A stretch of 35,711 nt of DNA from a virus. Shown here in pieces: positions 12,174-26,014 of the stretch (positions within the stretch are counted from its first letter, which is position 1; each line of letters starts with the position of its first letter). The DNA is taken from the IMG/VR virus record IMGVR_UViG_3300042731_004335, positions 1 through 35,711 of that record; one strand, written 5' to 3'. The notes beneath the pieces are model-generated. The model ran no database searches and was not told the DNA's origin. It saw only the letters and a program-made list of their open reading frames with translations. Both the position numbers and the translations under genes were made by a program.

Positions 12174-12270
12174 AAACATTGTTTTATTTTATATACATAA
12201 AAAAAAAGTGTCAATACTTTTTTTACAAGATAAAATTAACATAAAAAAACATTTGACAAGGTAAAACATT
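12174..12270. promoter_or_regulatory. Candidate operator: three AAACATT copies
   Basis: AAACATT occurs at 12174-12180 (just downstream of the leftward -10), 12247-12253 (touching the rightward -35) and 12264-12270 (inside the rightward spacer). The first copy is the core of an imperfect palindrome, TTAAACATTGTTTTA. The placement would let one small dimeric repressor control both divergent promoters. The adjacent ribbon-helix-helix gene is the natural candidate. Confidence 0.45.
12186..12214 (-). promoter_or_regulatory. Leftward sigma70 promoter for the recombination operon
   Basis: On the minus strand, -35 TTGACA (12209-12214), a 17-bp T-rich spacer and -10 TAAAAT (12186-12191). It lies 36 bp before the regulator start. 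The region is very AT-rich and lacks other genes. Confidence 0.78.
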
Positions 12271-12281
12271 TAGTATATACT
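12253..12281 (+). promoter_or_regulatory. Rightward sigma70 promoter for early genes
   Basis: -35 TTGACA (12253-12258), a 17-bp spacer and -10 TATACT (12276-12281), close to consensus. It lies about 30 bp before the first rightward gene and faces away from the leftward promoter. Confidence 0.85.
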
Positions 12282-13919: not shown

Positions 13920-14081
13920 ATGCTGTATTTAATCGCTTTTTTATATTTATTTATGACGGTCATATCACCAAAATTTGGCATTGGACTATTTGTATTAGTT
14001 CTGCTTTGGATAACTTTTATAGGCTTTTGGGTAGCTGTTATCGGTGGTGCCGGCCTTGGATTACTATATTTTTTTGGATGA
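13920..14081 (+). CDS. Two-pass small membrane protein (53 aa)
   Basis: ATG 13920 follows GGAG and lies 12 bp after the previous stop. The product is almost entirely hydrophobic: a first segment at residues 1-15, a short polar turn (SPKFG), and a long second segment at 20-53 rich in Leu, Ile, Phe and Gly. The topology would suit a holin-like or other inner-membrane protein, and no other holin is evident, but there is no sequence motif to confirm this. Its stop overlaps the T-run of a terminator on the opposite strand. Confidence 0.62.
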   Translation: MLYLIAFLYLFMTVISPKFGIGLFVLVLLWITFIGFWVAVIGGAGLGLLYFFG

Positions 14082-14112
14082 AAAAAGCCCGAAGCTGGTG
14101 ACTTCGGGCTTT
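14081..14112 (-). terminator. Strong leftward rho-independent terminator
   Basis: AAAGCCCGAAG (14084-14094), a seven-base loop, CTTCGGGCTTT (14102-14112): a perfect 11-bp stem. Read on the minus strand, GGGC is followed by six T, the classical form. On the plus strand the T-run is broken. The strong direction points left, although all annotated genes here point right, which implies a leftward transcript from downstream. Confidence 0.85.
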
Positions 14113-14122
14113 GAGATGACTT

Positions 14123-14185
14123 TTTACTACGCAAGCATTCGGGCAACAATTTTTATTGTTGTTCCGAAAGCCTGATTGTAGTAAA
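14123..14185. other. Long imperfect hairpin in the leader
   Basis: TTTACTAC pairs with GTAGTAAA at the base, GC-A-TTCGG with CCGAA-A-GC in the middle, and CAACAAT with ATTGTTG at the top, with a TTTT loop. Together these give about 22 pairs in 63 nt with small internal loops. Confidence 0.8.
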
Positions 14186-14245
14186 TGATTTGTAGTCGTT
14201 TCGTATTGAAGCTGTTTTTGTAGCTGATAATTCGGTCTGACTTTT

Positions 14246-14289
14246 AGCTATAGTGAATCCCACCAACCAAAGTGATTTCGCTATAAGCT
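14246..14289. other. Leader hairpin between the two halves of element A
   Basis: AGCTATAGTGAATC (14246-14259) pairs with GATTTCGCTATAAGCT (14274-14289), allowing two single-base bulges. It ends exactly where the TTGACAT outer arm begins. The counterpart in element B is TTTCCCCT/AGGGGAAA (14546-14590), of different sequence but equivalent position. Confidence 0.7.
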
Positions 14290-14356
14290 TGACATAGTAG
14301 TACATCAATCAGGCTTTCGCGTCAACTTATAAATGCGAAACGACGACATGTCAAGC
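14287..14356. repeat. Outer inverted repeat of element A
   Basis: GCTTGACAT (14287-14295) and ATGTCAAGC (14348-14356) are a perfect 9-bp inverted repeat enclosing 52 bp. The same TTGACAT/ATGTCAA arms recur at 14598-14606 and 14682-14690 in element B. Each right arm supplies the -35 box of a leftward promoter. Confidence 0.85.
14326..14354 (-). promoter_or_regulatory. Leftward promoter of the predicted antisense RNA
   Basis: On the minus strand, TTGACA (14349-14354), 17 bp, TATAAG (14326-14331). It matches 11 of 12 consensus positions with ideal spacing and points toward the strong terminator at 14081. Confidence 0.75.
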
Positions 14357-14407
14357 GCTAAAAGCTTCCGAATCAAATTCTAACAGAAGTTGAAATGGAG
14401 GCTGAAC

Positions 14408-14737
14408 ATGATTGAACCTAGCTTAACGTTAAGTAACCCACATTATCTACACGATAATCCTAATTTAATCTACCCTGAAAAAAAATTAATCTTTGCTCGA
14501 AAAAATGATATAAGGTATGATGATTTTTATTCGGGAAGTGTGAAGTTTCCCCTAATTCGATGTTTAAGTGACACATGGAACCAGGGGAAAGGCCAAATTG
14601 ACATGATGTATGGCACCCTTCACAAAACAAGTTTCTTTGGCGGGAACTGTTTTGTGAGCGTTAATATGCTACTCAAACCGCTCATGTCAAGGCTTTTCTC
14701 CAAACCTGAAGTTGGAAAGGAGATTGACCTGACATGA
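14408..14737 (+). pseudogene. Truncated duplicate of the initiator start, running into a second leader element
   Basis: ATG 14408 has GGAGG at good spacing; an upstream in-frame ATG at 14390 overlaps that site and is not preferred. The first 40 residues resemble the first 45 of the next gene (NPNLIYPEKK and YDDF here, NPYQIYPEKN and YDIF there). After about residue 43 the DNA stops resembling protein and becomes a copy of the structured leader (element B). The open frame, 109 aa in total, may therefore be accidental from there on. It could still be a short translated leader peptide. The stop overlaps the next start (ATGA). Confidence 0.6.
14529..14733. repeat. Leader element B, diverged copy of element A
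   Basis: It shares ordered landmarks with 14230-14407: ATTCGG, a hairpin, TTGACAT, an internal hairpin, ATGTCAA, GAAGTTG, GGAG, start codon. Stems differ in sequence but not in place: TTTCCCCT/AGGGGAAA (14546-14590), TTGACATGA/TCATGTCAA (14598-14690) and CACAAAACA/TGTTTTGTG (14621-14656). A weaker leftward promoter (TTGACA 14685-14690, 18 bp, TATTAA) would start RNA near 14655, at the foot of the last hairpin. I see no matching terminator. Confidence 0.65.
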
Positions 14738-15966
14738 TAACAATAGCACACAACACGCCAAATACACAAGAGATTTCAAACGAAAATCCCTACCAAATCT
14801 ACCCTGAAAAAAATCAAAATATTTTTAAAAAAGATGAGTACAAATCCTATGATATTTTCGATAAGCAGACAACCAGGACACAAATACCGGGTGATTCTGT
14901 AAATGCGTACCAAGTTTGGATGCTGCTACTATCATATCATCCGGAAGCCGATATTGATCCGTTAAATCTTGCGGATCATTTTGGTATTAGCAAAACGAAA
15001 ATATACAAGCTACTCAACATTCTGATAGCTGATGGTAGAGTACAGCGGAACCGGATAAGAGAAAAAGGCTATAATCAAAAATCAGACTATATGGTTTTTG
15101 AAGATCCGGAAGAGTGGCGGACTATTATTTTTTTCTCGTATCATCAAACTTTCAATCCAACCTATTTCGCAAACACGGAAAATAACAATTCAGCCTATTC
15201 CGCATTTGCGGAAAATAACCATGCCCGCAAACCCGCTAATAACACGAAGTTCGCAAACGCGAACTGTACATCATTTCTAGATTCTAGTAATAATATATAT
15301 AACAACAACAACAGTGATAAGAATATAGTTTCTGCAAGCCCCATGCCTGATCCTGCTGTTGTTGTCGAACCAAAAAAAATTATTTCAAAACCCAAAGAAC
15401 CCGAAACGCCGAAGCACAAAATAACCGAAGTCGGTGAAAAAATCCCTCCAGAGCTAAAGGAAAAACTAACTCCCGAACAAAAGCAGGACATCAAAGAAAC
15501 ACTTTTTCGCTGGCAATCTGAGTATGAAGTCGACAGGATGTTAGAAATCACAATAGCAGCTATTAAGTACAAGCCGGACAATTTGGGCGGCCTGCTGAAC
15601 GACGCATTAAAAAATAATTACATACCTAAACCTAAACCGAAAGAAAAAAACAAATATGATCCTCCCGAACATGTTTACACGCCACCACCGCCTTTAGATC
15701 CCTGGTATATTGAGCAAGCAAGACGAATAGAGAAGTCTTACAAAGATAACGCTGTGCCGATAAAGAGTGAAGAGCAGCAGGAAAACGCTAAATTTATCCA
15801 GGGAATGGGTACAGCTGCACGACTTAGAGCAAAATTAAAACAGCCGGATATAGATCCAAAATATCGTGGTCGTGGTCATGGTCGCGTCCCAATGACGGAT
15901 AAAGAAAAGCAGGAACGGAAAGCGATTGAACAGGAACTTGAAAAGCGACGAATCGAAAAGTTATGA
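14734..15966 (+). CDS. Replication initiator-like protein (winged helix), origin inside gene
   Basis: In the 410-aa product, residues about 55-115 form a winged-helix domain (SVNAYQVWMLLLSYHP, LNLADHFGISKTKIYKLLNILIADGRV), as in phage O-type and plasmid Rep initiators. Residues about 145-200 are a low-complexity Asn/Ala-rich linker, which at DNA level holds the iterons and AT-rich stretch of a likely origin, the same arrangement as lambda O. The C-terminal half is Pro/Lys-rich with a helical domain (about 235-300) that could contact a helicase or loader. No helicase, primase or polymerase gene is recognisable in this genome, so host replication proteins are probably recruited. Confidence 0.75.
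   Translation: MITIAHNTPNTQEISNENPYQIYPEKNQNIFKKDEYKSYDIFDKQTTRTQIPGDSVNAYQVWMLLLSYHPEADIDPLNLADHFGISKTKIYKLLNILIADGRVQRNRIREKGYNQKSDYMVFEDPEEWRTIIFFSYHQTFNPTYFANTENNNSAYSAFAENNHARKPANNTKFANANCTSFLDSSNNIYNNNNSDKNIVSASPMPDPAVVVEPKKIISKPKEPETPKHKITEVGEKIPPELKEKLTPEQKQDIKETLFRWQSEYEVDRMLEITIAAIKYKPDNLGGLLNDALKNNYIPKPKPKEKNKYDPPEHVYTPPPPLDPWYIEQARRIEKSYKDNAVPIKSEEQQENAKFIQGMGTAARLRAKLKQPDIDPKYRGRGHGRVPMTDKEKQERKAIEQELEKRRIEKL
15166..15320. other. Putative replication origin: iterons plus AT-rich stretch
   Basis: Four related sites lie at 15166-15180 (TTCGCAAACACGGAA), 15198-15213 (TTCCGCATTTGCGGAA, an inverted repeat), 15224-15236 (CCCGCAAACCCGC) and 15250-15263 (TTCGCAAACGCGAA). The first two are each followed by AATAAC, and the starts are 26-32 bp apart. 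Directly after comes an AT-rich run (about 15270-15320) with TAATAATATATAT and a CAA repeat, as expected for a melting region. It lies within the initiator gene, as in lambdoid phages. Confidence 0.68.
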
Positions 15967-16568: not shown

Positions 16569-16763
16569 ATGAAGCTCTACACGAAGGAAGAAAAGCGGGC
16601 GTTGTGGAATGATGATCCGTTAAATTATGTGATTATGGCGCATGAGCAGTTGTGTTGTGAGTTGCCTGAGCGTGATTTGTGTTTGAAATGTGAATTGAGG
16701 CATTGTCATTATTATCATCATGCGTTGAATTTATATGAGAATGGGATTTACGTAGCGGAATAA
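16569..16763 (+). CDS. Small Cys/His-rich protein (64 aa)
   Basis: I chose ATG 16569, one base after the previous stop (TGATATG). An upstream in-frame ATG at 16530 would overlap the zinc-ribbon gene. The product begins MKLYTKEEKRALWNDDP and contains CCELPERDLCLKCELRHCHYY, which may bind a metal ion. The family is unknown. The GC-richer third positions here differ slightly from the AT-rich genes upstream. Confidence 0.55.
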   Translation: MKLYTKEEKRALWNDDPLNYVIMAHEQLCCELPERDLCLKCELRHCHYYHHALNLYENGIYVAE

Positions 16764-16767
16764 AAAA

Positions 16768-16803
16768 AGCGCTCAAAGCCTTGTTGTAGTGGATGTGAGC
16801 GCT
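16768..16803 (-). terminator. Leftward-type terminator hairpin
   Basis: AGCGCTCA (16768-16775) pairs with TGAGCGCT (16796-16803) around a 20-base loop. On the minus strand the stem is followed by seven T; on the plus strand it is not. It may stop antisense transcription or act weakly in both directions. Confidence 0.55.
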
Positions 16804-16858
16804 CTTAAAGTGTGCACGATCGGAATATACAAAAGTGAAAGGAGATTGTCAATAAACA

Positions 16859-17287
16859 ATGTCAGGATTAAGCCCGACACAGAGAACATTACGTCATTTG
16901 CGGTATGAGGGGTTATTATCTGCGATAGTGGAAAAATTTAACCCGTATGCCGGGAAATTTGGACAGCGGCAGGACATGTTTGGGATTATCGACATAGTAT
17001 CACTATGCCCGATCAGGGGTATAATTGGCGTGCAGAGCTGCGGTAACAGTTTTTCGGAGCACTGGCGTAAGCTTACAGAGGAAAAGGCGGATATCACGCA
17101 TGAATGGTTGTCGTGTGGCGGTAAACTGTACATATATTCGTGGAGGAAAGTCAAAAAACGTCGCGGTGGAAAGCAAATGATTTGGCAACCGCGGATAAAA
17201 GAGATAACGTTAGAGGATGTAGATTGTGAGAATAGCGCGTGTATAAAATCGAGAATTAGAGAAAATTATAATGTCAGTAGGGGATAA
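16859..17287 (+). CDS. PD-(D/E)XK-like nuclease family protein (142 aa)
   Basis: The product begins SGLSPTQRTLRHLRYEG and has RQDMFGIIDIVSL followed by GIIGVQSCG. The order of an acidic residue after a helix (D in FGIID), a strand and then a V-Q pair is the core seen in resolvase-like PD-(D/E)XK nucleases of phages, with Q in place of the usual E/D-x-K. A Trp-Arg-Lys basic end follows. Length fits small Holliday-junction resolvase-type enzymes. GGAG lies about 15 bp before ATG 16859, longer than ideal. A junction-resolving role before packaging is plausible, not proven. Confidence 0.65.
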   Translation: MSGLSPTQRTLRHLRYEGLLSAIVEKFNPYAGKFGQRQDMFGIIDIVSLCPIRGIIGVQSCGNSFSEHWRKLTEEKADITHEWLSCGGKLYIYSWRKVKKRRGGKQMIWQPRIKEITLEDVDCENSACIKSRIRENYNVSRG

Positions 17288-17403: not shown

Positions 17404-17481
17404 TGCGGGATAGGGCAGTTTGGTAGCCCGCTTGGCTCATTCCCAAGAGGTTCGTCGGTTCAAATCCGGCTCCCGCTACCA
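17404..17481 (+). tRNA. tRNA-Met (CAU) with unpaired 1-72
   Basis: A full cloverleaf with encoded CCA: acceptor TGCGGGA/TCCCGCT, D stem GGGC/GCCC with a nine-base loop, anticodon stem CTTGG/CCAAG with loop CTCATTC (anticodon CAT), a 6-base variable loop, T stem GTCGG/CCGGC with TTCAAAT. The first acceptor pair is T-T, a mismatch. Lack of pairing at 1-72 is a hallmark of bacterial initiator tRNA. Only two of the three conserved G-C pairs in the anticodon stem are present, so it could instead be an elongator or Ile2-type tRNA. Confidence 0.9.
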
Positions 17482-18981: not shown

Positions 18982-19307
18982 CATCGATACAGCTCAGCTT
19001 TAAGGATGCAGTATATATCACGATCTACATCGTTACCGTAGTTTCAATGCTGGCCGGATTCAAACATCAAATCAAAACACTGCAAGAAACAATTGGTCGA
19101 ATGCAAAAGCTACTCTATCACGACCAGGGCACGCTTAACGTGATCGATATACAGACGTGCAAGCAAAAGCGCGATGCGGTCTATACCGCGATTAGAAAAG
19201 GCGAGCAGATCACGGACGATATTCGCAAGGAAATGAAAACGTTGAACGAAAACGTCCTACGGATCATGATTCACTTACAGATTGACACTAAGAAAGAAAT
19301 AATATGA
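18978..19307 (+). CDS. Membrane protein with coiled coil (109 aa)
   Basis: Residues about 10-27 are one hydrophobic segment (AVYITIYIVTVVSMLAGF). The rest is a charged helix with heptad-like spacing, probably cytoplasmic or periplasmic depending on topology. One helix plus a coiled coil occurs in several phage lysis accessory proteins and in some structural or exclusion proteins, but no motif decides. ATGA overlaps occur at both ends, linking it to the Cys/His gene and the sigma factor. Confidence 0.6.
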   Translation: MTSIQLSFKDAVYITIYIVTVVSMLAGFKHQIKTLQETIGRMQKLLYHDQGTLNVIDIQTCKQKRDAVYTAIRKGEQITDDIRKEMKTLNENVLRIMIHLQIDTKKEII

Positions 19308-19819
19308 ATAGAGATTTTAAGAGATTTAATGAAATGCCCAAATCCGTATTATATATGGCTAATGTCTTTGATGGTTATCACTGTTTGATGACTTTTGACG
19401 ACTATGTTGCAGCAGGTTATATAGGATTTTTGGAGGCGGAAAAGAATAAGCATAAAATTGGAAATTATAAATCCTATCTTTTTAAAAAAATAAAATACCG
19501 GATCATAAATGAAATACACAATTTTAGTGGTAAAAGAAGATTGGGTCCTAGAGATGAAAGAAAATATATCACTCCGTTTTTTTATTATACATTTGATTTT
19601 GAGCTTATTCTTAGTGATCTGGATTTAGAAAAAAAAATAGTGATAAATGATTTAATGCATTATTTATCAAAATTGAATCCACTTTACTGTTATGTTATAA
19701 GGCTATTCTATTTCGAAAATTATAATTTAACCCAAATAGCTAAAAACTGTCATCTCACTAAAAGACAAGTTAGACATATCAAGTCAAAAGCCATTGATGT
19801 TTTAAGAAACTTAGTGTAA
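19304..19819 (+). CDS. Phage-encoded sigma-70-like factor (171 aa)
   Basis: Residues about 30-80 match sigma region 2 in layout (FDDYVAAGYIGFLEAEKN, then YKSYLFKKIKYRIINEIHNF). Residues about 124-171 match region 4, a helix-turn-helix (LNPLYCYVIRLFYFENYNLT, AKNCHLTKRQVRHIKSKAID). There is no region 1 or 3, as in short ECF-type or phage sigma factors. It probably redirects host RNA polymerase to late phage promoters. The gene is clearly more AT-rich than its neighbours, suggesting separate origin. It starts within the previous stop (ATGA). Confidence 0.78.
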   Translation: MNRDFKRFNEMPKSVLYMANVFDGYHCLMTFDDYVAAGYIGFLEAEKNKHKIGNYKSYLFKKIKYRIINEIHNFSGKRRLGPRDERKYITPFFYYTFDFELILSDLDLEKKIVINDLMHYLSKLNPLYCYVIRLFYFENYNLTQIAKNCHLTKRQVRHIKSKAIDVLRNLV

Positions 19820-19865: not shown

Positions 19866-20252
19866 ATGTCAGATAATATCATAACAACTATAGTGGAAAA
19901 AGCTAAAATAATTATTGAAAGTTCTAAAGAACTAAAAGAACAAATAGACGAGCTAAGCGAATGGAACGGATACGGAAAAGTACTTAATAACATTGCCCTT
20001 ATCGTTTCTTTTGTGGAATCGGTCACGATAACAGTAGAAAATATCTACGATGAAATCAAAGAATCGTTTGGCGATGGTACAAGCTCAGAAACAAAGCTAG
20101 AAGCAGCAGCAGCAACGATCGACGAGCTTTTAGACTTTCCGATCTGGCTTGAGATAGTCGATAAATATATCATAAAGATAGTGATTTCTATGGTCGTCCA
20201 CTACTTGAATGAGAGATATGGCCACGAATGGCTATTGGATGCACGCTTTTGA
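19866..20252 (+). CDS. Hypothetical helical protein, C-terminal hydrophobic helix (128 aa)
   Basis: AAAGGAGG precedes ATG 19866. The first 70 residues are helical and charged. After a flexible SFGDGTSSETK stretch comes AAAATIDELLDFPIWLEIVDKYIIKIVISMVVHYLNE, whose end is moderately hydrophobic. Proteins of this plan occur in phage virion or lysis regions without assigned function; a holin-like role is possible but weak. The 3' end overlaps the ParB-like gene. Confidence 0.55.
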   Translation: MSDNIITTIVEKAKIIIESSKELKEQIDELSEWNGYGKVLNNIALIVSFVESVTITVENIYDEIKESFGDGTSSETKLEAAAATIDELLDFPIWLEIVDKYIIKIVISMVVHYLNERYGHEWLLDARF

Positions 20253-20821
20253 AGATACCAGTAACATGTAAGGGCAGCAAATCCGTAGCCCTGGAAACAT
20301 TACAGGATTTTCAGGGCAATCTAAAAACGCTGCAACTTGACGAACTCGAAAAGCTGAAACGGTCTATCCTCAAGTATGGCTTTTCTTTTCCGGTGTTCGT
20401 CTGGAAGGATTCCATTCTTGATGGGCATCAACGATTGTTCGCTTTGAAAGAGCTACTGAAAGAAGATCATACTATAGGCAACATACCCGTCGTTGAAATA
20501 CAGGCTAAAAACAAGACTGAGGCAGCAGAAAAGCTGTTATTGATCAACAGCCGTTATGCAGAAATCGAGTACGACGGACTCCAAAAATTCATTGATGAAA
20601 ACCAAATTGACTTGGATGCGATCATCGCAGATTTGAGTATACCCGACATTGACCTATCTGAGTTCATGGCTGAATCCAACCAAGACGATGATGCTGAATA
20701 TGAGGAAAGAGAAGGATTCGAGTATCAGATATTAATTAAATGTGAAGATGAAGAAAATCAAAAAAATACAATAGATAAAATAGAAAAACTGGGTATAGAA
20801 TGCCAACCATTGATATTATAA
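20228..20821 (+). CDS. ParB/Srx-like domain protein
   Basis: The N-terminal ParB-like domain shows FQGNLKTL, LKRSILKYGFSFPVFVWK and ILDGHQRLFAL; DGHQR (residues 65-69 from ATG 20228) is the family's nucleotide-binding/active motif. A TTG at 20249, overlapping the previous stop (TTGA), gives the more usual MKIPVT opening and may be the real start. The end (FEYQILIKCEDEENQKNTI) is a small separate domain. In many phages this ParB domain is fused to a DNA methyltransferase. Here it stands alone, overlaps an ABC-GNAT gene by 22 bp, and methyltransferase scraps lie downstream. A DNA-modification role is inferred. Confidence 0.82.
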   Translation: MAIGCTLLKIPVTCKGSKSVALETLQDFQGNLKTLQLDELEKLKRSILKYGFSFPVFVWKDSILDGHQRLFALKELLKEDHTIGNIPVVEIQAKNKTEAAEKLLLINSRYAEIEYDGLQKFIDENQIDLDAIIADLSIPDIDLSEFMAESNQDDDAEYEEREGFEYQILIKCEDEENQKNTIDKIEKLGIECQPLIL

Positions 20822-21930
20822 AATCTGTTGATGTCTCAAGATCTATAAGAGCGAGGCAACTTGAGTCAATTTTTGATGTTCCAGCAAGAGAAAAAGAAAT
20901 ATCAAAATGGAATGGTGACCTTCCGATCGAAAATAAAGAGTGGAATATAGGTCTAATAGTCGGTCATTCAGGTTCTGGCAAATCTACTATCGCAAAAGAA
21001 ATATTCAAAAATAACTATGAACCTAAAATAACATGGAAAGAAAAATCTGTTATTGATGATTTCGATAGCAAATTGAGTATTGAAGAAATTACAAAATCAT
21101 GTAGTTCTGTAGGGTTCAACACAATACCATCATGGCTTAAGCCGTATTCTGTTCTTTCAACCGGCGAAAAATTTCGCGTTGAAATCGCTCGAAGATTGTT
21201 GGAATGTAAAAGCCCTATTGTTGTCGATGAATTTACATCCGTCATTGATCGTCAGGTAGCTAAAATAGGCTGTCATGCGATACAAAAGTTTATCAGAAAA
21301 CAGGGAAAACAGTTTGTTGGTGTATCATGCCATTACGATATTATTGATTGGCTACAACCGGATTGGATATTCGAACCGGCTACAATGACATACAAACCAA
21401 GGGGGTTACTTCAAAGACCAAAAATCGATGCTGAAATACGAAAAACAAAAAGGGACTATTGGAAACTATTTTCACAATATCACTATATGAATAATGAATT
21501 ACATCATGCAGCGTCCTGCTACACAATGTTTATTGAAGATAAACCGGTCTGTTTTGCGGCTGTAATTCATTTGCCGCATAATAAAGTAAGAAATATCAAA
21601 CGGATATCAAGAGTTGTGACATTGCCGGACTGGCAGGGCTTAGGACTTGTACACATTCTTTCCTGCACATTGGGAGCTGCATACAAGACTATAGGCTATA
21701 AACTTAGAGCATATCCAAAGCACCCGCCGTTAATTATGGCGATGTGTAAAATAAAAGAATGGAAAATGATATCAAAACCAAAAATAATAGGAAAAGGTAA
21801 ATCTAAAATGATCAAAAAAGATAAAAGAGGCGGTTTATCTTTTCAAAAAAAAAGATCCGGTGGAGCTGTTTTTGAGTATATCGGTAAAAAAATGAAATAT
21901 GAAAACGCGATAAAATTGTTAAACATATAA
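20800..21930 (+). CDS. ABC-type ATPase fused to GNAT acetyltransferase-like domain
   Basis: Residues 1-200 are an ABC ATPase without membrane segments: Walker A GHSGSGKS (55-62), signature LSTGE (119-123), Walker B IVVDEF (140-145), switch His in SCHYD (178). Residues about 218-330 look like a GNAT domain: YHYMNNELHHAASCYTMFIE, then the RISRVV strand and the WQGLGLVHIL acetyl-CoA loop (278-287). Phage Mu Mom, which modifies adenine in DNA, is a GNAT-fold enzyme. A soluble ATPase fused to GNAT beside a ParB protein suggests ATP-driven DNA modification. The gene is AT-rich, suggesting acquisition. Confidence 0.78.
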   Translation: MPTIDIIKSVDVSRSIRARQLESIFDVPAREKEISKWNGDLPIENKEWNIGLIVGHSGSGKSTIAKEIFKNNYEPKITWKEKSVIDDFDSKLSIEEITKSCSSVGFNTIPSWLKPYSVLSTGEKFRVEIARRLLECKSPIVVDEFTSVIDRQVAKIGCHAIQKFIRKQGKQFVGVSCHYDIIDWLQPDWIFEPATMTYKPRGLLQRPKIDAEIRKTKRDYWKLFSQYHYMNNELHHAASCYTMFIEDKPVCFAAVIHLPHNKVRNIKRISRVVTLPDWQGLGLVHILSCTLGAAYKTIGYKLRAYPKHPPLIMAMCKIKEWKMISKPKIIGKGKSKMIKKDKRGGLSFQKKRSGGAVFEYIGKKMKYENAIKLLNI

Positions 21931-22142
21931 AAAATATAAAAAGCTAAATCATTATCGTTGGCGATTTTAGGCGAACATCGATTGATGTGCGGCGATAGTA
22001 CGAATGAGAAGACCGTAAATGCTACGCGATGGAGATATCACCGGAATACTGCGATGTCGCCGTAAAAAGATGGGAAGAATTTACTGAAAGAAGGCTGAAC
22101 TGGCGTAAACCCTTGATTTGACTCTATTGACGCTTAAAAAAT
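21931..22142 (+). pseudogene. Remnants of a ParB-linked DNA methyltransferase
   Basis: The gap before the terminase has two coding scraps in different frames. From 21967 (frame of TTA) it reads LGEHRLMCGDSTNEKTV, the classical linker and SAM-binding start of phage DNA methylases that follow a ParB domain. From 22023 to TGA 22119-22121 it reads YAMEISPEYCDVAVKRWEEF, the classical methylase C-terminus. About 150 residues with the catalytic PP-x-Y motif are missing. The scraps mark an internal deletion, and no start or ribosome site is seen. Confidence 0.8.
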
Positions 22143-22529
22143 ATGGCAAAAAAACCACAAAAACAGCAAAATTTGACGATAGAACAGATTGAAAAAGCTC
22201 TGCGAAAGCATAATGGCGTTCAAGTGCTAGCCGCCAACGAATTAGGCGTTACACGGGCAGCAATTAGTGCAAGAGTTAAAACCAGCTCCAAATTAAAAAA
22301 TGTTATTGAAGAAACCAAACAAAGAATTCTGGATGTATCTGAGGCAATACTTTTTAAGAAGATTACAGATGAACAGAATATGACGGCACTAATATTTTAC
22401 TTGAAATGCCACGGTCGCGACCGGGGATACGTTGAAAACAGGAATGTAGATATAGGCAACCAGGACGGTAAAGCCTTTAAAGTCGAGCGGGTAATAGTAG
22501 ATGTCGAAAACGATCAAGATAAGGATTGA
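22143..22529 (+). CDS. terS: Terminase small subunit
   Basis: The 128-aa product has an N-terminal helix-turn-helix (QIEKALRKHNGVQVLAANEL, then GVTRAAISARVKTS) followed by a helical oligomerisation segment and a short basic/acidic end. It overlaps the large subunit gene by 29 bp. The small subunit recognises the pac site, often located in or near its own gene in P22-type phages. The ribosome site before ATG 22143 is poor, perhaps because the upstream DNA is the remnant of a deleted gene. Confidence 0.82.
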   Translation: MAKKPQKQQNLTIEQIEKALRKHNGVQVLAANELGVTRAAISARVKTSSKLKNVIEETKQRILDVSEAILFKKITDEQNMTALIFYLKCHGRDRGYVENRNVDIGNQDGKAFKVERVIVDVENDQDKD

Positions 22530-23928
22530 TACGCCACGGTGGGCGGTGCCATTGGTGCATAAAAAGCCGCGGTATAAAGCTGTTTACGGCGGGAGATCGA
22601 GTGGAAAGAGCCATTTTTATGCTGAGCTGATGATCGATCGTTGCTTGACGCCCGGTACAAGCTGCGTTTGCATTCGTGAGGTGCAGAAAAGCCTTGAGCA
22701 ATCAGCCAAGCGGTTATTGGCATTGAAGATTCAAAAGTTCGGACTTGGGTCGCTGTTTGAAGTACAAAACAATCAAATTAAAACGCCAGGCGGCGGCCTG
22801 ATTATATTTCAAGGCATGGCAACCCATAACGCTGAAAGTATTAAGTCATTGGAATCATTCGATATTGCATGGATAGAAGAGGCTCAGACTCTCTCAGACA
22901 CTAGCCTGAGCTTGCTTAGGCCAACGATCCGCAAAAAGGGCAGCGAGATATGGGCGTCATGGAATCCAAGGTTTGAAGATGATCCTATTGACGTTTTCTT
23001 TCGTGGTGAGCATCCTCCGAAAAATGCGGTAATAGTCAAGGTCAATTATTATCAAAACCCTTGGTTACCGGATGAGTCAAAAGAGGAAATAGAACACGAT
23101 AAGGCATATTTTAAGGACAAATTCGATCATATCTGGCTTGGGGAATACTTTGACACGATTGAGAATGTTTTAATTCCCAAGGCGTGGTTTGATGCCTGTA
23201 TCGATGCCCACAAGACGTTAGGTTTCAAAGCCGAAGGTATACGGTATTCAAGTCATGACCCTGCCGATGAAGGCGATGACGCTAAAGGATTTGCATTCCG
23301 GCATGGTTCGGTAGTTCTAGATGTTCAGGAAAAAAACGATGGTGATATAAATAGTGGTTGTGATTGGGCTACAGATCTGGCTTTAAGACATAAATCGGAT
23401 GCATTTACATGGGATAGTATAGGTGTAGGCGCAGGTCTGAAACGACAGATTGCAAAGACATTCGGAGGAAAGCCTACCATACTTTCACAATTTGTCAGTA
23501 GTGAATCAGCCGACTTTCCGGACAATATTTTTGAGCCGGTAATGGACGGCAACATTCAGCATCAACAGCGCAACCGTGATCTATTTCGTAACAAGCGAGC
23601 GCAATATTATTGGTATCTCAGGGATAGAATCTACAGGACATATAGAGCTGTCGTACACAAGGAATACCACGACCCTGAAAAAATGATTGCGTTTTCGAGT
23701 GATATTAAGATATTATCAAAGCTAAGATCCGAGATTTGTAGAATCCCCATGAAACCCAATCCTAACGGGTTTTTCGAGTTGTATTCAAAAATCGATATGA
23801 AAAGCAAATTTCGGATTGATTCACCAAACTTAGCCGATTCAGTAATGATGTTGATGCGAGTGCCAACGAATCCAATTAATCACAATGTTTCCAGGCCAAA
23901 ACCAATCAAGCCGATGGGAAGGCGCTAA
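22501..23928 (+). CDS. terL: Terminase large subunit (ATPase-nuclease)
   Basis: The 475-aa product has Walker A GGRSSGKSH (residues 30-38), Walker B IAWIEEA (122-128) and the SWNPR coupling motif soon after. The C-terminal RNase-H-like nuclease has acidic residues in SSHDPADEGDD, TWDSIGVGAG and PNLADS. This is the PBSX/P22-like headful group (Terminase_3 plus nuclease). It packages DNA into proheads through the portal encoded next. It overlaps the small subunit gene, which suggests coupled synthesis. Confidence 0.95.
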   Translation: MSKTIKIRIDTPRWAVPLVHKKPRYKAVYGGRSSGKSHFYAELMIDRCLTPGTSCVCIREVQKSLEQSAKRLLALKIQKFGLGSLFEVQNNQIKTPGGGLIIFQGMATHNAESIKSLESFDIAWIEEAQTLSDTSLSLLRPTIRKKGSEIWASWNPRFEDDPIDVFFRGEHPPKNAVIVKVNYYQNPWLPDESKEEIEHDKAYFKDKFDHIWLGEYFDTIENVLIPKAWFDACIDAHKTLGFKAEGIRYSSHDPADEGDDAKGFAFRHGSVVLDVQEKNDGDINSGCDWATDLALRHKSDAFTWDSIGVGAGLKRQIAKTFGGKPTILSQFVSSESADFPDNIFEPVMDGNIQHQQRNRDLFRNKRAQYYWYLRDRIYRTYRAVVHKEYHDPEKMIAFSSDIKILSKLRSEICRIPMKPNPNGFFELYSKIDMKSKFRIDSPNLADSVMMLMRVPTNPINHNVSRPKPIKPMGRR

Positions 23929-23929
23929 A

Positions 23930-26014
23930 ATGCTCGAACTAAAAGACATCAAAGATCTGCATGATAAAGCATACCAGGCGGGGCAGACGACCCGGGAAAG
24001 GGCCGCTGATGACCTTGTCTTTCACTTCGTAACACAGTGGGATGAAGGTATTCTTGAAGATAGCCAGCTTGCATATCGTGGCGAGTTCAATATCCTTCGG
24101 AAAGCCACACGTCAAATACTTTCAGACCTGGCATTGAACAAGATTCAGATTGACTTTGAACCCGTAGATGAGGACAGGACCGATGCCGGAGATACTATTG
24201 ATGGTCTTTACCGTTTTTCTGATAACAATAATGTTGCCCAGGAAAGCTATAGCAATGCCAAACAGGAAGCGGTCGTGTGCGGCTTTGGGGCATGGTTGCT
24301 TGAAACCAAATACGTTTCGATGCGGTCAGGAAATGAAAAACAGAAGATATGCCGATGTCCGATCAACGAAGCCAATAATACCGTATTTTGGGACCCAAAC
24401 GCTAAGTTGCTTGATAAGAGCGACGCGGATTACTGCGGAATACTAGAGGCCTACACGGAAGATGGTTACAAGCAGCTCGTAGAAAACCTGACGGGAGAAG
24501 AACCGGAAAACGTAAACCCCGGCAATTTCAGCCATCCTGAAACAAGCTACGTGTTTCCGTGGATTGGAAGCGACAACCAAAAAATATATGTCATCAAATT
24601 TTTCCATAGGGAAGTAGTCAAAGATAAGATACTGACCATGATCGATCCTTTGGGAGATACTATGCAGGTTCTGGAATCGCGGCTTGATAAAGTCATGGAT
24701 GATATGATAAGCGGAGGCTGGTCAATCCAGGACAGCAAGAAAATTGAACGATATGAAGTAACACAGTATATTGCATCGGGTGAGGATATTCTATCAACTG
24801 AGGTAATCGTAGGTGAGCATATTCCAGTCGTACCGGAATATGGAGAACGCGCCATAATTGAAGGCGAAGAACATTATGAAGGAATAACCAAGCTGGCTAA
24901 AGATCCGCAACGGCTTAGGAACTTTCAGCTTTCTTTTCTGGCTGATATCGTAAGCCAGTCGCCACGTGAAAAACCTATTTTTCAGCAGGAACAGGTTGCT
25001 ACGTTTGAGGATATGTACAGCACGACCGGATCAGACAACAACTTTCCATATGTACTGCAAAACAGAAAAGCGGCCGATGGTACAGATTTACCTTTGGGAC
25101 CGGTAGGAATGCTTCCGGCACCGAACATGCCGGCTCCTCTTATTGCATCGATCGAGCTATCCAGGCAGGCAGTTGAAGACGTGGCTAACCCGGGAACGCC
25201 CCAAGATATAGCCGATCCTGATATATCCGGTAAGGCAGTGTTAGCCTTGCAGGCGCGCCTTGACATGCAATCCATGATCTACCAGGAAAACTTCAAGCAC
25301 GCCAAGCGTCGGGACGCTGAAATATTCGTGTCGATGGCAACAGAAATATACGACGTGCCAAGGCGTGAAAAGATCCAGTTGCCGGATGGTACTATCAAAA
25401 ATATCGAGATTATGAAGGCTGTTGTTGATGAGGAATCCGGCGAGATAGTTACTATCAACGATATCAACAACAAAGAGTTTGAAGTCTATAGCAAAATCAC
25501 TACGAGCTATACGACCCAAAAAGAACAGACGCTTGACCGGATAACGGAAATGATCGCACAGCTTGAACCACAAGATCCTGTAAGGAAAGCCTTACAGCTC
25601 AAGCAACTTGCGCTTATGGATGGTATCGACTTTGATGACATCAGGGACTATGCAAACAAGCAGTTGGTAATTACCGGCATCCGGAAACCGGAAACCGATG
25701 AAGAAAAGGCGATGATGGCGCAGATTGCACAGGCCGGGAATCAGCCGGACCCGAACATGTTACTTGCTCAGGCTGAAATGCTCAAAGGTCAAGCCGACAT
25801 GCTTAGAGAACAGCAGAATTCGATCAAGATGCAATACGATCAGGCTAATAACGAAGCCAAGAATCAGATCAGTGCCTTTGCTGCTGAGACCGACCGAATG
25901 GAAGCACAGGTAAGAGCAGAGCAGGCAGGCGTTGACATCGATATGAAAAATATAGAGGCTTTCGGTAAGCAGTTGGACAACAGAAAAAAGATAGTGGAAT
26001 TGCAGGGGGCATAA
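23930..26014 (+). CDS. Portal protein, P22 type
   Basis: I chose ATG 23930 (AAGG at 7 bp spacing), giving 694 aa, close to P22 gp1 (725 aa). An in-frame ATG at 23885 lies inside the terminase gene. Typical blocks: ERAADDLVFHFVTQWDE, YRGEFNILRKATRQI, a GFGAWLLETKY stretch, VSQSPREKPIF and DISGKAVLALQARLDMQ. The long Gln/Glu-rich C-terminal helix (about 570-694) matches the barrel-forming end of P22-type portals. It forms the dodecameric DNA channel and the nucleation point for prohead assembly. Confidence 0.93.
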   Translation: MLELKDIKDLHDKAYQAGQTTRERAADDLVFHFVTQWDEGILEDSQLAYRGEFNILRKATRQILSDLALNKIQIDFEPVDEDRTDAGDTIDGLYRFSDNNNVAQESYSNAKQEAVVCGFGAWLLETKYVSMRSGNEKQKICRCPINEANNTVFWDPNAKLLDKSDADYCGILEAYTEDGYKQLVENLTGEEPENVNPGNFSHPETSYVFPWIGSDNQKIYVIKFFHREVVKDKILTMIDPLGDTMQVLESRLDKVMDDMISGGWSIQDSKKIERYEVTQYIASGEDILSTEVIVGEHIPVVPEYGERAIIEGEEHYEGITKLAKDPQRLRNFQLSFLADIVSQSPREKPIFQQEQVATFEDMYSTTGSDNNFPYVLQNRKAADGTDLPLGPVGMLPAPNMPAPLIASIELSRQAVEDVANPGTPQDIADPDISGKAVLALQARLDMQSMIYQENFKHAKRRDAEIFVSMATEIYDVPRREKIQLPDGTIKNIEIMKAVVDEESGEIVTINDINNKEFEVYSKITTSYTTQKEQTLDRITEMIAQLEPQDPVRKALQLKQLALMDGIDFDDIRDYANKQLVITGIRKPETDEEKAMMAQIAQAGNQPDPNMLLAQAEMLKGQADMLREQQNSIKMQYDQANNEAKNQISAFAAETDRMEAQVRAEQAGVDIDMKNIEAFGKQLDNRKKIVELQGA

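Follow-up and report, generated by a model that had tools for sequence, protein, structure and literature searches.

Phage lambda expresses an RNA, OOP, that extends 52 nt into the 3' end of cII (PMC5869508) and acts on cII mRNA together with RNase III (PMC3985674, PMC5869508); the stability of the O-P mRNA is not altered by OOP (PMC3985674). Activity of lambda pO lowers transcription from pR, and loss of pO disturbs replication, effects that were attributed by the authors to polymerase interference (PMC3985674). An RNA is also expressed at the OOP position in the Salmonella prophage BTP1 (PMC7067206). Lambda additionally encodes aQ, a leftward antisense RNA of ∼220 nt directed against a rightward phage operon (PMC12197685); its target is the Q gene, and CII activates it (Ho and Rosenberg 1985, cited in PMC12197685).

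The 35,711-base viral stretch analyzed here (the window) contains a predicted leftward RNA of ∼240 nt, RNA1 (14080–14319), whose arrangement resembles that of lambda OOP/pO: a leftward host-type promoter and an intrinsic terminator are located in the gap ahead of a putative initiator gene, within a rightward early operon, and the iterons of a candidate origin lie inside the initiator gene. The comparison with OOP made in the first-pass annotation stands with respect to relative position only. RNA1 is ∼240 nt from predicted promoter to terminator, as compared with 77 nt for OOP, and it meets the upstream coding sequence at the stop codon only. Because it lacks the cII overlap and is three times as long, RNA1 is not an OOP member. 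It further differs from OOP in that its 5' end is complementary to its own interior and in that an extra ORF of 109 aa precedes the initiator. RNA1 resembles aQ as a leftward antisense RNA of about the same length against a rightward operon, but unlike aQ it has its own near-consensus promoter and precedes the initiator. Pairing of such an RNA with the initiator leader would feed back negatively on replication, as with the plasmid copy-control antisense RNAs CopA and RNAI; unlike these RNAs, RNA1 does not cover the ribosome-binding site and matches no family. By prediction, RNA1 has what marks a phage cis-antisense RNA, namely its own promoter and terminator opposing an operon, and the prediction of a leftward RNA gene, a variation on these RNAs, is well supported.

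The early operon and the predicted RNA1 transcription unit

The main rightward early promoter of the window is a pR-like site at 12253–12281 (TTGACA-17-TATACT). It forms one half of a divergent pair at 12214/12253, which resembles pL/pR of early operons. A promoter scan demanding T at the last −10 position found no rightward promoter matching at least 9/12 positions between 13.7 and 14.8 kb, and no rightward promoter equal to the pR-like site was found between that site and the initiator. Since no comparably good promoter intervenes, the initiator mRNA would be produced largely by read-through from the pR-like site. Two sets of direct repeats are present among the early rightward genes (12901–12935/13581–13615, 97% identical over 35 nt; 13803–13825/13848–13870, 100% over 23 nt).

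RNA1 occupies the gap between a hydrophobic, membrane-type ORF of 53 aa (13920–14081, rightward), whose stop codon abuts the RNA1 terminator, and the rightward 109-aa ORF (14408–14737), which overlaps the start of the putative replication initiator gene (14734–15966, rightward). Neither the 53-aa nor the 109-aa ORF matches a known family, and the ribosome-binding sites of the 109-aa ORF and of the initiator both lie outside RNA1. The initiator label has some support from a weak match to PHROG 428 (E 1e-3), a winged-helix-like region, and internal iterons with AT-rich DNA as in lambda O. The iteron-like cluster within the gene (15165–15265, rightward) is followed by AT-rich DNA, and the segment 15165–15330 as a whole is a candidate origin of the lambda type. 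The 109-aa ORF (14451–14508) and the initiator (14780–14837) have in common an N-terminal stretch, NP..IYPEK, with 71% identity at the DNA level, as might result from a partial duplication of the initiator start.

The leftward promoter that had been noted at 14354–14326 (TTGACA-17-TATAAG) is indeed present and agrees with the consensus at 11 of 12 positions. It is skipped by a scan that demands T at the last −10 position, and the RNA1 start at 14319 is deduced from the −10 box only. The window contains six sites matching at least 11/12 positions with a spacer of 16–18 bp, two of which form the divergent pair described above; the spacer is 17 bp in every case. Across 100 dinucleotide shuffles the mean was 1.33 such sites, or 0.44 when only 17-bp spacers were counted. 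The RNA1 terminator (14112–14080, with its hairpin at 14084–14112 on the leftward strand) had been described as an 11-bp hairpin followed by six T. The hairpin is clean and leftward, but three of the T residues belong to the stem and three follow it: the last three pairs of the 11-bp stem are A-T, which makes it equivalent to an 8-bp GC-rich stem plus T6. Terminator-like sequences similar to it gave weak matches in Klebsiella, Alteromonas, and Vibrio plasmid records. When a unit was defined as a promoter of at least 11/12 with a strong terminator no more than 320 nt away, two units were observed in the window as compared with 0.05 per shuffle and a maximum of one in 40 shuffles. From this arrangement we infer that RNA1 is quite likely transcribed, and that it is probably a non-coding leftward RNA gene served by a host-type promoter and a terminator of its own.

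The same annotation had reported that no leftward ORF lies in this interval, which proved incorrect: an ORF of 51 codons with TTG/ATG starts extends leftward from 14308 to 14153. RNA1 could on this basis be a small mRNA, perhaps for a membrane peptide or a type I toxin, with a start codon that the 5'-end pairing described below would mask. The ORF covers most of RNA1, and its start codon lies 11–14 nt from the predicted 5' end, beside the 5' pairing segment. Against a coding role, there is no Shine-Dalgarno site; the codon usage is between that of coding and non-coding sequence, at the top of the out-of-frame range; and an ORF at least this long occurred in 5.5% of shuffles. The ORF is probably not coding, and we consider the mRNA reading very unlikely.

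Competing folds and inverted repeats in the gap

When the leftward RNA of 14080–14319 was folded, as the first-pass annotation had suggested, it proved strongly structured (z −5.9 to −6.4) and was the most structured 240-nt window across 12.3–17.5 kb. Nearly all of this excess derives from the terminator and a 63-nt local hairpin (14123–14185, leftward; −26.5 kcal/mol); the segment 14186–14319 alone is no more structured than chance (z about −1). The first 14 nt of RNA1 (CGAAAGCCUGAUUG, 14319–14306) are a perfect complement of 14178–14165, and this pairing competes with the local hairpin for the latter segment. The hairpin, the 5' pairing, and the mutually exclusive folds that had been proposed from them were thus all recovered, with energies of −72.1 kcal/mol for the fold containing the local hairpin and −70.1 kcal/mol for the fold containing the 5'-end pairing, a difference of 2 kcal/mol. 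On paper, the two competing folds are genuine in energy terms. At the lengths of transcript that were tested between 156 and 192 nt, the long-range, 5'-end fold is the energy minimum, and the order of synthesis favors its formation first. The terminator is unaffected by either fold, and the folds therefore would not act as an attenuator of RNA1 itself. Together, the sequence statistics and the calculated energies give good support to the prediction of a discrete RNA gene that is read leftward and whose product has two competing folds. The paired 5' end also raised the idea of a retron, which was dropped when no reverse transcriptase was found among the subset of proteins scanned.

The rightward strand of the RNA1 region is nearly as structured (z −5.7), and the strong folding of both strands alone cannot tell which is functional. 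The gap is flanked by two consecutive inverted repeats (14158–14207 and 14301–14353) in a circularly permuted order, X Y ... X' Y'. In the rightward transcript this arrangement could fold into a pseudoknot, and the RNA1 promoter makes up the outer right arm. The segment 14186–14207 (rightward strand) is complementary to the promoter segment 14332–14353 over 22 nt (82%), a pairing that is possible in the rightward transcript only, because 14332–14353 lies outside RNA1. In P1/P7 c4 and P4 CI, complementary segments likewise pair within a leader that precedes early or replication genes, and the antisense segments of P1 c4 reside in the same transcript as their target. By this precedent, which serves as a lead only, the functional molecule could be a rightward pR leader, serving as an attenuator or as a riboregulator like c4 or P4 CI before the initiator, in which 14186–14207/14332–14353 and 14165–14178/14306–14319 would pair and the leftward promoter would be secondary. 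The outer inverted repeat, promoter included, pairs in rightward RNA only, and over 14114–14360 the rightward strand folds with a z of −6.0 as compared with −5.1 for the leftward strand. However, the leftward strand has the better z over 14080–14319, the terminator T-run and the near-consensus promoter are both on that strand, and the X Y X' Y' repeats require a pseudoknot if both are to form. The c4 and CI RNAs are cut from the sense transcript; here the rightward strand also folds strongly, but the RNA1 promoter and terminator face the opposite way. No c4 or other convincing Rfam family matched the RNA1 region even at an E value of 10. We regard a rightward leader as unlikely to be the functional RNA.

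The inverted repeats could also be DNA operators or remnants of a duplication, with the leftward promoter and terminator only weakly used. A TTTCGC/GCGAAA inverted repeat has its arms on either side of the −10 region, and the repeats are circularly permuted copies such as a duplication could leave; the co-occurrence of promoter and terminator above chance, twice in the window, argues the other way, and we hold this explanation to be improbable.

A second promoter-terminator unit and a common motif

The second unit, RNA2, is a predicted leftward RNA of ∼54 nt (16763–16816; z −4.5), which is located 2.5 kb downstream of RNA1 and fills the gap between an ORF ending at 16763 and a gene at 16859. 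Its leftward promoter (16824–16852, TTGACA-17-TATATT, 11/12) overlaps the ribosome-binding region of the gene at 16859, and its terminator hairpin (16765–16806, leftward) has an 11-bp stem, a 20-nt loop CATCCACTACAACAAGGCTT, and a T-run. RNA2 is, as judged from its predicted elements, a smaller unit with the same layout as RNA1, and in sequence both resemble genuine RNA genes.

The RNA2 hairpin loop and the RNA1 hairpin have a 21-nt motif in common, identical at 17 of 21 positions, a score reached by ∼0.7% of shuffles. On the rightward strand the motif reads AAAGCCTGATTGTAGT at 14167–14182, with its complement in the RNA1 hairpin, and AAAGCCTTGTTGTAGT at 16775–16790, with its complement in the RNA2 loop. 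By calculated energy, the best pairing partner of the RNA2 loop in the early transcript outside its own site lies at 14161 of the rightward RNA (−20.6 kcal/mol, against a mean of −7.4); the RNA1 segment can pair at 16761 of the rightward RNA (−24.8 kcal/mol). The two RNAs may conceivably be coupled, each being antisense to the gap that it occupies and, via the common motif, to the transcript facing the other, with the bistable fold of RNA1 setting when its segment is free. We consider this a long shot; if true, two antisense RNAs would jointly time the replication genes.

Alternatively, RNA1, with or without RNA2, could work mainly in trans as a small RNA on host or phage mRNAs through the motif ACUACAAYMAGGCUUU. 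The presence of the motif in both RNAs and its location in the 20-nt loop of RNA2 are in line with such a role, as are the U-rich tails, which are typical of Hfq-dependent small RNAs. Yet the only targets identified were the two loci themselves, both RNA1 folds leave the motif largely paired, and no relatives were found. A mainly trans-acting role is doubtful. The motif also matches CTACAATAAGGCTTT of Actinobacillus (L041, L043, and L044), which we take to be a tracrRNA-like sequence of type II-C CRISPR. The score of a local alignment to an Actinobacillus tracrRNA-like sequence was reached by 0.3% of shuffles, but this match had been preselected by the motif, and a tracrRNA-mimic reading is for that reason kept only as a lead.

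Relatives and a proposed role in initiator control

Searches with the initiator protein returned no relatives in viral contigs, genome contigs, phages, or plasmids, and searches with the initiator, the 109-aa ORF, a 165-aa ORF, and DNA found no relative carrying the RNA1 region. Three candidate relatives of the 109-aa ORF (L002–L004) were rejected as short chance matches in unrelated proteins. A DNA pattern of the RNA1 start gave no match. The promoter-plus-motif pattern gave ten viral matches, which belong to one protein-coding family (SNF2-helicase-like by translation) rather than to an RNA, and genome matches that were mostly chance. RNA2 was absent from relatives of the gene at 16859 (≤59% identity), in which the genes are closely packed; as judged from these relatives, RNA2 is not kept with its neighbor gene.

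A terminase search recovered one near-identical contig, located outside the RNA1 region, plus distant P22-like phages. The contig (L005, 4.4 kb, viral) is 99.96% identical to 20185–24628 of the window and stops short of the RNA region. Among the distant P22-like relatives, no comparable promoter-terminator unit was found in eight of the recovered contigs or in two named phages. The window also encodes a single tRNA-Met (CAT; 17404–17481), a sigma-factor-like protein (19304–19819; PHROG 1740, 36, 351), and, at 20228–21930, a ParB-like protein followed by an ABC-ATPase/acetyltransferase-like fusion (phrog_11143, E 2e-97).

The reading that we prefer, with a probability of about one half, is that RNA1 restrains the initiator genes, leftward transcription and antisense pairing damping read-through from the pR-like promoter. 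The leftward polymerase and the antisense RNA would lower the amount of rightward transcript reaching the 109-aa ORF, the initiator, and the iteron cluster. Damping could occur through collisions between polymerases, as has been reported for pO acting on pR in lambda, through RNase III cleavage of the leader duplex, or through both. A rise in gene copy number would raise the output of RNA1 and damp the supply of initiator. The pairing between the 5' end and the interior probably acts on RNA1 stability or pairing kinetics: the first-formed fold would hide the 5' end, and the later hairpin would free it.

The two competing folds and a second RNA with a common motif offer concrete sequences to mutate. 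If RNA1 is transcribed, an OOP-like arrangement would be present in a phage that has P22-type head genes but unrelated replication genes, which would lend weight to the idea that phages generally adjust their DNA replication by means of opposing transcription ahead of the initiator.
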